Of a stretch of 64,000 nt of DNA, positions 57,197 through 59,121 are shown one piece after another. How positions within the stretch are numbered: position 1 is the first letter of the stretch; every line of letters starts with the position of its first letter. The notes beneath the pieces were generated by a model. The model searched no databases, was not told the DNA's origin, and worked only from the letters and a program-made list of their open reading frames with translations. This DNA comes from Candidatus Synechococcus calcipolaris G9 (GTDB lineage Bacteria; Cyanobacteriota; Cyanobacteriia; Thermosynechococcales; Thermosynechococcaceae). The stretch is from assembly GCF_029582805.1 (NCBI RefSeq), contig NZ_JAKKUT010000002.1, positions 1,078,001 through 1,142,000 on the forward strand. The letters run 5' to 3'. The translations under genes and the position numbers were made by a program.

Positions 57197-57667
57197 ATGG
57201 AGCTTAGGTTTGCCATGTTTAGATCAATGTTTTTGCTCCTGAGCATTTTACTGGTTGCGGGAGTTTGGAATACCCTACCGGCTCCGGCCCGGGATATCCC
57301 CCAGAAGTTGGCCCGCCGCCATAACCAAGGGCCGCCAAAGGTCGTTAAAGTCACCGAAGCCCAGGTTGTCAGTGACAATATTAATGGGATATGGTATCAC
57401 AGCCTTAGCGGTCAGGTGGTAAATGAAACCGGGGGAACGGTTCGCAATATTCAGGTCTATTACGAAATTTATCAGCCCGGCACCAATCGCCTTGTGGATG
57501 CGGGGGCAACGACAGTGAAACCCAGTCCCCTCTTAGCCAATGCGGTGGGGAATTTCCGGCTTACGTCTAACCAGGGCGGTCAGGTTAAAATTACCCTCGT
57601 GGAGTGGTTAAGTGGCGATCGCGGCTACCATTCTCACCCGCAAATGGAGGAGTTTCCGGCTCAGTGA
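57197..57667 (+). CDS. Exported hypothetical protein with FxLYD-like domain
   Basis: A 156-residue protein with a signal peptide (MFLLLSILLVAGVWNTLPAP region). The mature part GQVVNETGGTVRNIQVYYEI is the beta-sandwich pattern of FxLYD/DUF3426 domains that sit on the cell surface. An alternative ATG at 57215 would leave a shorter signal peptide. It is divergent from murD and convergent with the recombinase gene. No function is known. Confidence 0.7.
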   Translation: MELRFAMFRSMFLLLSILLVAGVWNTLPAPARDIPQKLARRHNQGPPKVVKVTEAQVVSDNINGIWYHSLSGQVVNETGGTVRNIQVYYEIYQPGTNRLVDAGATTVKPSPLLANAVGNFRLTSNQGGQVKITLVEWLSGDRGYHSHPQMEEFPAQ

Positions 57668-57682
57668 GCTATTTACCCAACC

Positions 57683-58987
57683 CTAGAACATAAAACAGAG
57701 GGTGATCCGCCAGGATTTAACCTCGCCGTAGTGAACCTCTATGGCTTTAATAAATTCACGGAAATAAAATCGCTGTTCCGGGGCAGAGAGGGCGTACCAA
57801 AACTGGGGCACGCCAATATTATCCACGATTTGGCGAAGATTATCGGGGGGAAGTTGGGACTGTTGATCCTGTAGGGTGGCCAATTCACTCCGAAGTTTAT
57901 AGCGGCGGAGTCGGGCTGTCTCCCCATCTAAGATTCCGTCCTGCACCAAGGTTTCCAGTTGGGCGATGCGGTCATTGAGTTGCCCAATGGTGTCTTCCAG
58001 TTGGCCGCGCCTGGCCTCTAGTCCGGTGGTTTTTAGTCCGGCCATTGCGGGGGGGAGTTCCTGGCAAATTTGGTGAATGGTTTGCTCTAAAATGCGATCG
58101 TAGGCAAGACTGGGGCATTTAGGGGAATGGGGACATTGGCGGGGCCGCAGATAGATATATTCCTGCTGTTTGCGATAGGCTGTCACCCGCGATCGCTGGA
58201 AGGAACTACCACAGGCCCCACAATAGATCAGGCCGGCCAAGGCATGGGGAGCACTGGCGGAACGCCTCGGCAAGGAACGATTTCGCCGTAACAGTCGATC
58301 CACTTGGGCGGCTTCTTCCCGTGAAAGAATAGGGGCATGGGTATCGCGAATAATTTCATTGTTTTTGTAGCATAAATCACCGCGATAGACTGGGTGGGTT
58401 AGCCACCGCTGGCCCGTGGTCACAGAAATTTTCTTTTGGTGAGCTTGGTCTAAAAAACGGACGGCCGATCGCAACGAACCGTAGAGCAAAAAGTGATCAA
58501 AGAAATCCTTGACAATAATGGCCGCCTGGCGATCGATGACATATCGCTCCTTGCCGCGACGATAACCGTAGGGAACCCGACCGGGGGGGGGTAAAAACTT
58601 GAGGCGACTGCGGCCATGGCCCTGGCGAATTTGGCGACTGCGCTGCTGTTGCTCTAGGGTCTCCAAGAGGTGGGCAAAAGCTTTCGGGCCGGAGGTGATA
58701 CCAGTGCGATAGGGCTGGGCGATCGCCATTACCTGAATCCCCAAAGCTTCTAACTGCCCGAGGCGATCGCCAATCTCGGAAATTGAATCTGCCAACTCAT
58801 CCAACCGGCAGAGCAAAAAATAACTCACCTGCCCAGGCATCAGGTTCTGCAAAAGAGAACATAGGTGGGGCCGCTGCGGCTCAACATCGATATAAACCCG
58901 ATCCACCTCCTGCCCCCAGACCTCACTATCCTCCGGTAGGGTTTCCCAACGGGTATCAAAATATCGGTAAGCAATTACAGCACCCAT
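57683..58987 (-). CDS. Serine-recombinase homologue lacking catalytic residues
   Basis: A 434-residue protein with the large serine recombinase layout: N-terminal resolvase-like domain, Recombinase domain (from about residue 135), and a zinc ribbon with Cys256, 259, 285 and 291 before a coiled coil. Where the nucleophile Ser is expected, AVIAYRYFDT has no Ser. At RLDELAD (61-67) the motif LDRLxR is LDELAD, so Arg68 and Arg71 are replaced by Glu and Asp. It is therefore predicted to bind DNA but not cut it. The gene ends near tRNA-Lys, an integration hotspot. I chose ATG 58987; an upstream start at 59041 would reach the tRNA. Confidence 0.8.
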   Translation of the reverse strand: MGAVIAYRYFDTRWETLPEDSEVWGQEVDRVYIDVEPQRPHLCSLLQNLMPGQVSYFLLCRLDELADSISEIGDRLGQLEALGIQVMAIAQPYRTGITSGPKAFAHLLETLEQQQRSRQIRQGHGRSRLKFLPPPGRVPYGYRRGKERYVIDRQAAIIVKDFFDHFLLYGSLRSAVRFLDQAHQKKISVTTGQRWLTHPVYRGDLCYKNNEIIRDTHAPILSREEAAQVDRLLRRNRSLPRRSASAPHALAGLIYCGACGSSFQRSRVTAYRKQQEYIYLRPRQCPHSPKCPSLAYDRILEQTIHQICQELPPAMAGLKTTGLEARRGQLEDTIGQLNDRIAQLETLVQDGILDGETARLRRYKLRSELATLQDQQSQLPPDNLRQIVDNIGVPQFWYALSAPEQRFYFREFIKAIEVHYGEVKSWRITLCFMF

Positions 58988-59042
58988 AGCAGCAAAACGA
59001 TTTACCTGTGCTAGTCTAGTAAAGGACTTAAATTTTTCCAAC

Positions 59043-59114
59043 GGGTTGCTAGCTCAGTGGTAGAGCATTCGGCTTTTAACCGACTGGTCCTGGGTTCGAG
59101 TCCCAGGCGACCCA
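59043..59114 (+). tRNA. tRNA-Lys (anticodon TTT)
   Basis: A 72-nt cloverleaf: GGGTTGC/GCGACCC acceptor, GCTC/GAGC D stem, anticodon loop CTTTTAA (TTT), T arm CTGGG-TTCGAGT-CCCAG and discriminator A. One anticodon-stem end pair is T-C. CCA is not encoded. It lies just outside the start of the recombinase homologue gene, which is on the other strand. Confidence 0.93.
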
Positions 59115-59121
59115 CTTTTAA

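Follow-up and report, generated by a model that had tools for sequence, protein, structure and literature searches.

The best NCBIfam match of the protein described here is XisF, the excision recombinase of the fdxN element (NF041201; E 7e-36, aa 29–419), with which it shares the domain order. At 124.2 bits, however, the match stays below the 375-bit cut-off, the catalytic residues are gone, and the gene is not tied to an excised element. The same architecture, an N-terminal resolvase-like domain (NTD) followed by a recombinase domain (RD), a zinc-ribbon domain (ZD) and a coiled coil, is found in the large serine integrases A118/LI Int (4kis), YokA, Bxb1 and phiC31, from which the protein nevertheless differs in having no nucleophile, in the acidity of its NTD, in not residing on a mobile element, and in that its RD is its most conserved part, whereas theirs is fast-diverging. 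With the gamma-delta/Tn3 resolvases (PF00239 NTD) it has the NTD fold in common (Z 12.5 to 2gm5), but its active site is lost and its AlphaFold model lacks helix A of the catalytic domain. We found no prior description of an inactive cyanobacterial serine recombinase in the open-access literature; subscription papers could hold one.

Results

The gene and its domains

The gene lies at 57683–58987 on the minus strand of the window, by which we mean the whole 64,000-nucleotide stretch of the Candidatus Synechococcus calcipolaris G9 genome that was analysed, and it is an intact open reading frame of 434 codons with an ATG start. PF00239 (Resolvase, weakly), PF07508 (Recombinase) and PF13408 (Zn_ribbon_recom) all match above cut-off. 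The protein thus has the parts of a large serine recombinase (LSR): the NTD (aa 1–100; 58688–58987), a long helix E joining the catalytic and recombinase domains in the AlphaFold secondary structure (aa 101–129; 58601–58687), the DNA-binding RD (aa 130–240; 58268–58600), and the ZD (aa 245–300; 58088–58255), whose putative zinc ligands Cys256, Cys259, Cys285 and Cys291 are invariant in the family. They are followed by a coiled-coil hairpin with the conserved tip ILD.ETA.LR.YKL (aa 319–378; 57854–58033; the AlphaFold prediction spans aa 321–377) and a conserved C-terminal subdomain with the pattern QFW..LS..E.RFYFREF (aa 379–434; 57686–57853). The initial annotation of this stretch, which had described an intact gene of 434 codons retaining the recombinase domain, four zinc-ribbon Cys and the coiled coil, is borne out on each of these points.

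By profile search, the source genome holds no other PF00239 or PF07508 match, which argues that there is no active partner of this recombinase type; a PF07508 match was present in the S. elongatus control genome. The window neighbours of the gene look like housekeeping genes (psbC, psbD and murD, identified by sequence). Tail to tail with the gene, across a 15-bp gap, lies a 156-aa open reading frame (57197–57667, plus strand) that matches nothing in Pfam and whose beginning resembles a signal peptide.

Loss of the active site

The N-terminus of the protein reads MGAVIAYRYFDT, and the second catalytic motif reads LDELAD. We aligned it with gamma-delta resolvase, whose sequence served as the ruler, and with 18 homologues that have an intact active site and yield the same register. 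In gamma-delta numbering, R8 is replaced by Y9, S10 by D11, R68 by E64 and R71 by D67, while the Asp67 position (D63), D36 (D34) and R45 (R39) are retained. Aspartate therefore occupies the place of the Ser nucleophile of the GYxRVS motif, and no other Ser of the protein aligns with that position; the nucleophile is gone, as the initial annotation had stated. Its count of two lost catalytic Arg falls short by one, since Arg8, Arg68 and Arg71 are all gone.

As alignment with other cyanobacterial sequences makes clear, these losses are common to the orthologue family. In a set of 133 unique full-length cyanobacterial orthologues, no sequence has Arg at position 8, where 125 have Tyr. Ser10, Arg68 and Arg71 are each retained in a single sequence; 104 sequences have Asp at position 10, 124 have Glu or Asp at position 68, and 109 have Asp or Glu at position 71. 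D36 is found in all 133 and R45 in 127 of them, and the NTD has no alternative Ser that is invariant across the family. The divergent orthologues of families f5 and f17 are likewise inactive as judged by these residues. Outliers that might have seemed to have regained a nucleophile (L068, L144 and others) retain at most one or two catalytic positions. All 18 outgroup homologues have Arg8, Ser10, Arg68 and Arg71 intact.

Distribution and selection

Six short peptide patterns, which bound what is detectable, were run against 84,980 species genomes of bacteria and archaea; the 63 loci that they hit are all cyanobacterial by title. Of the 244 genomes of the phylum that were sampled, 88, from 26 families, have an orthologue, always as a single copy; the 88 include a few broken copies (G093, G183). 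Orthologues are set apart by a score gap, scoring at least about 380 bits where other homologues reach about 110 or less. Among the phylum genomes sampled, no orthologue-level score occurred outside the class or in f2, whose genomes (1.5–3.7 Mb) are of picocyanobacterial size. The gene is lost or broken in G009, G022, G171 and G204, with G022 and G171 carrying disrupted copies.

A quick tree separates the inactive proteins from the others at a branch with SH-aLRT 100, which does not contradict a single origin of the loss. Nei–Gojobori dN/dS is about 0.1–0.2 in most of 60-odd pairs, in the NTD and the remainder alike. The low dN/dS and the conservation argue for a maintained protein, not a remnant, in keeping with the earlier suggestion that selection keeps the gene. 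Moreover, because the NTD is itself under purifying selection in most lineages, it presumably also does something.

Predicted structure and conservation of the domains

AlphaFold, run on 50 orthologues, gave a monomer model with a mean pLDDT of 86 and the full LSR fold. Along its whole length the model resembles known structures of large serine integrases, the best VIA Z being 16.0 to the LSR–DNA complex 4kis over 285 aligned residues in the C-terminal part of the model, and its NTD matches resolvase catalytic domains at Z of about 12.

Within the inactive family the RD is the most conserved part (conservation score 0.79 versus 0.57 for the NTD), and the order is reversed in active relatives (0.50 versus 0.59); as the active relatives used here are few and more diverse, the order within each set is comparable but the absolute scores between sets are not. 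Mean net charge of the NTD is -9.8 in the inactive family versus +0.9 in active relatives, and the RD and ZD of the inactive family together carry +18, as would befit a DNA-recognition region.

Orthologues without the catalytic domain

Three genomes, G313 and G318 of family f36 and G052 of family f22, have intact open reading frames of about 340 aa comprising the DNA-binding part only (L208, L211 and L214, respectively). These naturally truncated orthologues start near the end of helix E and include the RD, the zinc ribbon, the coiled coil and the C-terminus; no trace of the NTD was seen upstream of them, where unrelated coding sequence directly adjoins. The G313 and G318 proteins are 65% identical over the DNA-binding part despite saturated dS, and they may share one deletion, that of G052 being a second. 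Some lineages can thus do without the catalytic domain, which is missing from three genomes of at least two lineages, but they keep the DNA-binding part. Judged from sequence, the truncated orthologues make the strongest single argument that DNA binding would be the retained function.

Genomic neighbourhood

In 30 of the 71 genomes that have both genes, across 12 families, the recombinase gene is preceded on its own strand, at no more than 1.2 kb, by a VOC/glyoxalase-fold gene (119 aa, PF00903). In several unrelated lineages the stop codon of the VOC gene and the recombinase start overlap by 4 bases (ATGA). Tight pairing is seen, for example, at L018, L028, L053, L153, L162, L036 and L163, among others, and short tandem repeats of the CCAATGA type expand the spacer in Nostocales loci (L024, L026, L021, L003 and others). 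We rejected the VOC gene as an obligate partner: it was not found in 17 of the 88 gene-positive genomes and lies 117 kb away in the source genome. The g5 genomes of the source family have, instead of the VOC gene, a glycogen-synthase-like gene (identified from sequence) 3–37 bp upstream.

The adjoining tRNA-Lys that had been pointed out initially is real: a tRNA-Lys(TTT) at 59043–59115 on the plus strand stands divergently to the recombinase, separated from its ATG by a 55-bp intergenic region (58988–59042). The arrangement is limited to two families, however, recurring in six genomes of the source family (the window and five others) and in two of f17 (two genera), mostly at 40–115 bp from the likely start codon, and we rejected a general tRNA link. 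With VOC linkage in 30/71 genomes and the tRNA-Lys in these two families only, no conserved neighbour points to a pathway, and we treat both arrangements as leads, not as a mechanism.

Discussion

Our preferred explanation, which we consider probable, is that the protein is a domesticated LSR that no longer cuts DNA and serves as a sequence-specific DNA binder, a putative regulator or architectural protein. An ancestor of crown cyanobacteria would have recruited a recombinase of the XisF or phage-integrase kind, its active site would have been lost, most simply once, and the gene would then have been inherited vertically as a single copy. Most likely, a dimer would bind a specific conserved DNA site, perhaps one target shared across the family, through the RD and ZD, and the bound protein, cleaving no strand, would regulate transcription locally or play an architectural part, with subunit contacts made by the coiled coil and the remnant of the catalytic domain. 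A DNA-binding role, which the initial annotation had raised as a possibility, is strongly supported to the extent that it can be read from sequence, by the basic and most conserved RD and by the survival of the DNA-binding part where the catalytic domain has been deleted. Several observations count against this explanation. No binding site was found for the protein, and DNA binding by the RD and ZD alone leaves the function of the NTD unexplained. The loss of the gene in several lineages and its disruption in G022 and G171 mean that it is not universally needed. Gene regulation and chromosome organisation are both possible readings of the putative DNA-binding role.

One particular form of this explanation would make the protein a DNA-bridging, chromosome-organising factor: two site-bound dimers would pair through their coiled coils and helix E, much as in an integrase synapse, and hold distant sites together without cleavage. 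The full LSR fold, the retention of helix E and of the coiled-coil hairpin with its tip, and the presence of the coiled coil even in the truncated orthologues are consistent with such pairing. On the other hand, we saw no sign of more than one site per genome or of tetramers, and some lineages have lost the NTD, which bears the synaptic interface. We therefore regard bridging as a rather unlikely form of the DNA-binding role.

The preferred explanation can also be pushed further, to an integrase turned into a phylum-specific DNA-binding factor for one conserved sequence, at its furthest the HIP1 repeat or a HIP1-dependent site. In that case the protein would bind the HIP1 octamer, GCGATCGC, for which a binder has long been sought, and its conservation would follow HIP1. 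Elhai (PMC4390886) linked HIP1 to methyltransferases and doubted a dedicated HIP1-binding protein. If the recognition domain is conserved, its target should be conserved too, and we therefore compared HIP1 abundance with gene presence; a target common to most cyanobacteria would in turn explain the conserved RD. With f2 set aside, 114 of 123 HIP1-rich genus units have the gene versus 9 of 17 HIP1-poor ones (Fisher p 1e-4, in a post hoc comparison that ignores phylogeny and genome reduction and in which gene presence or absence was partly deduced from the lack of a listed profile match). The sampled picocyanobacteria have neither the gene nor HIP1, and G009 and the small-genome species of g66 have lost both while their relatives retain both. 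Against this, HIP1 is abundant where the gene is missing in the whole genera g77 and g129 and in several other lineages, and the gene is intact where HIP1 is not abundant in G400 (22 sites), G407 (72 sites) and f5. Furthermore, LSR recognition sites are much longer than 8 bp. The HIP1–gene association is weak and confounded, with exceptions in both directions; we think it very unlikely that the protein is a HIP1 binder, or the single-sequence factor of which that is the furthest version, and keep the association as a low-probability lead.

Two further points concern the HIP1 survey itself. G351 and G383 of g77 were considered as inactive orthologues and rejected, being active recombinases, and g77 was scored as lacking the gene in the genus-level comparison, which is therefore unaffected. 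In addition, HIP1 is nearly absent (22–134 copies) in single species whose congeners have thousands, as in G400 and G407 versus other f13 g153 genomes, and the same depletion is seen in G052 and G107 versus G103 and G118; in G107 the reversed control octamer CGCTAGCG outnumbers HIP1 (174 versus 74), perhaps an alternate HIP.

The protein might otherwise be a non-catalytic subunit or accessory factor that steers or inhibits an active recombinase, and several genomes do carry active homologues as well. We hold this to be extremely unlikely, as the source genome lacks any candidate partner of this type and the gene is conserved in many genomes regardless of active paralogues. That it still recombines DNA through different catalytic residues, as the retention of D36 and R45 might suggest, is scarcely credible: the nucleophile and the phosphate-binding Arg are replaced family-wide, mostly by acids, neither another invariant NTD Ser nor a predicted helix A is there to take part, and three orthologues have no catalytic domain at all. 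A decaying prophage or mobile-element remnant, to which the recombinase ancestry, the adjoining tRNA and the few disrupted copies might point, is equally hard to credit given the mostly low dN/dS, the clade-wide single-copy conservation, the housekeeping neighbours, the lack of convincing att-like direct repeats within 2.6 kb and the lack of any confirmed viral relative among 2.9 million viral contigs scanned with profile A2.

A serine recombinase is normally taken for an enzyme of a mobile element. The protein described here is vertically inherited, single-copy and apparently non-cutting across most of the phylum, and domestication as a DNA binder would make it a clear example of how an enzyme of a mobile element can be recruited for putative DNA binding. 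Should its target be found, the protein could represent a new type of regulator or nucleoid protein in cyanobacteria.
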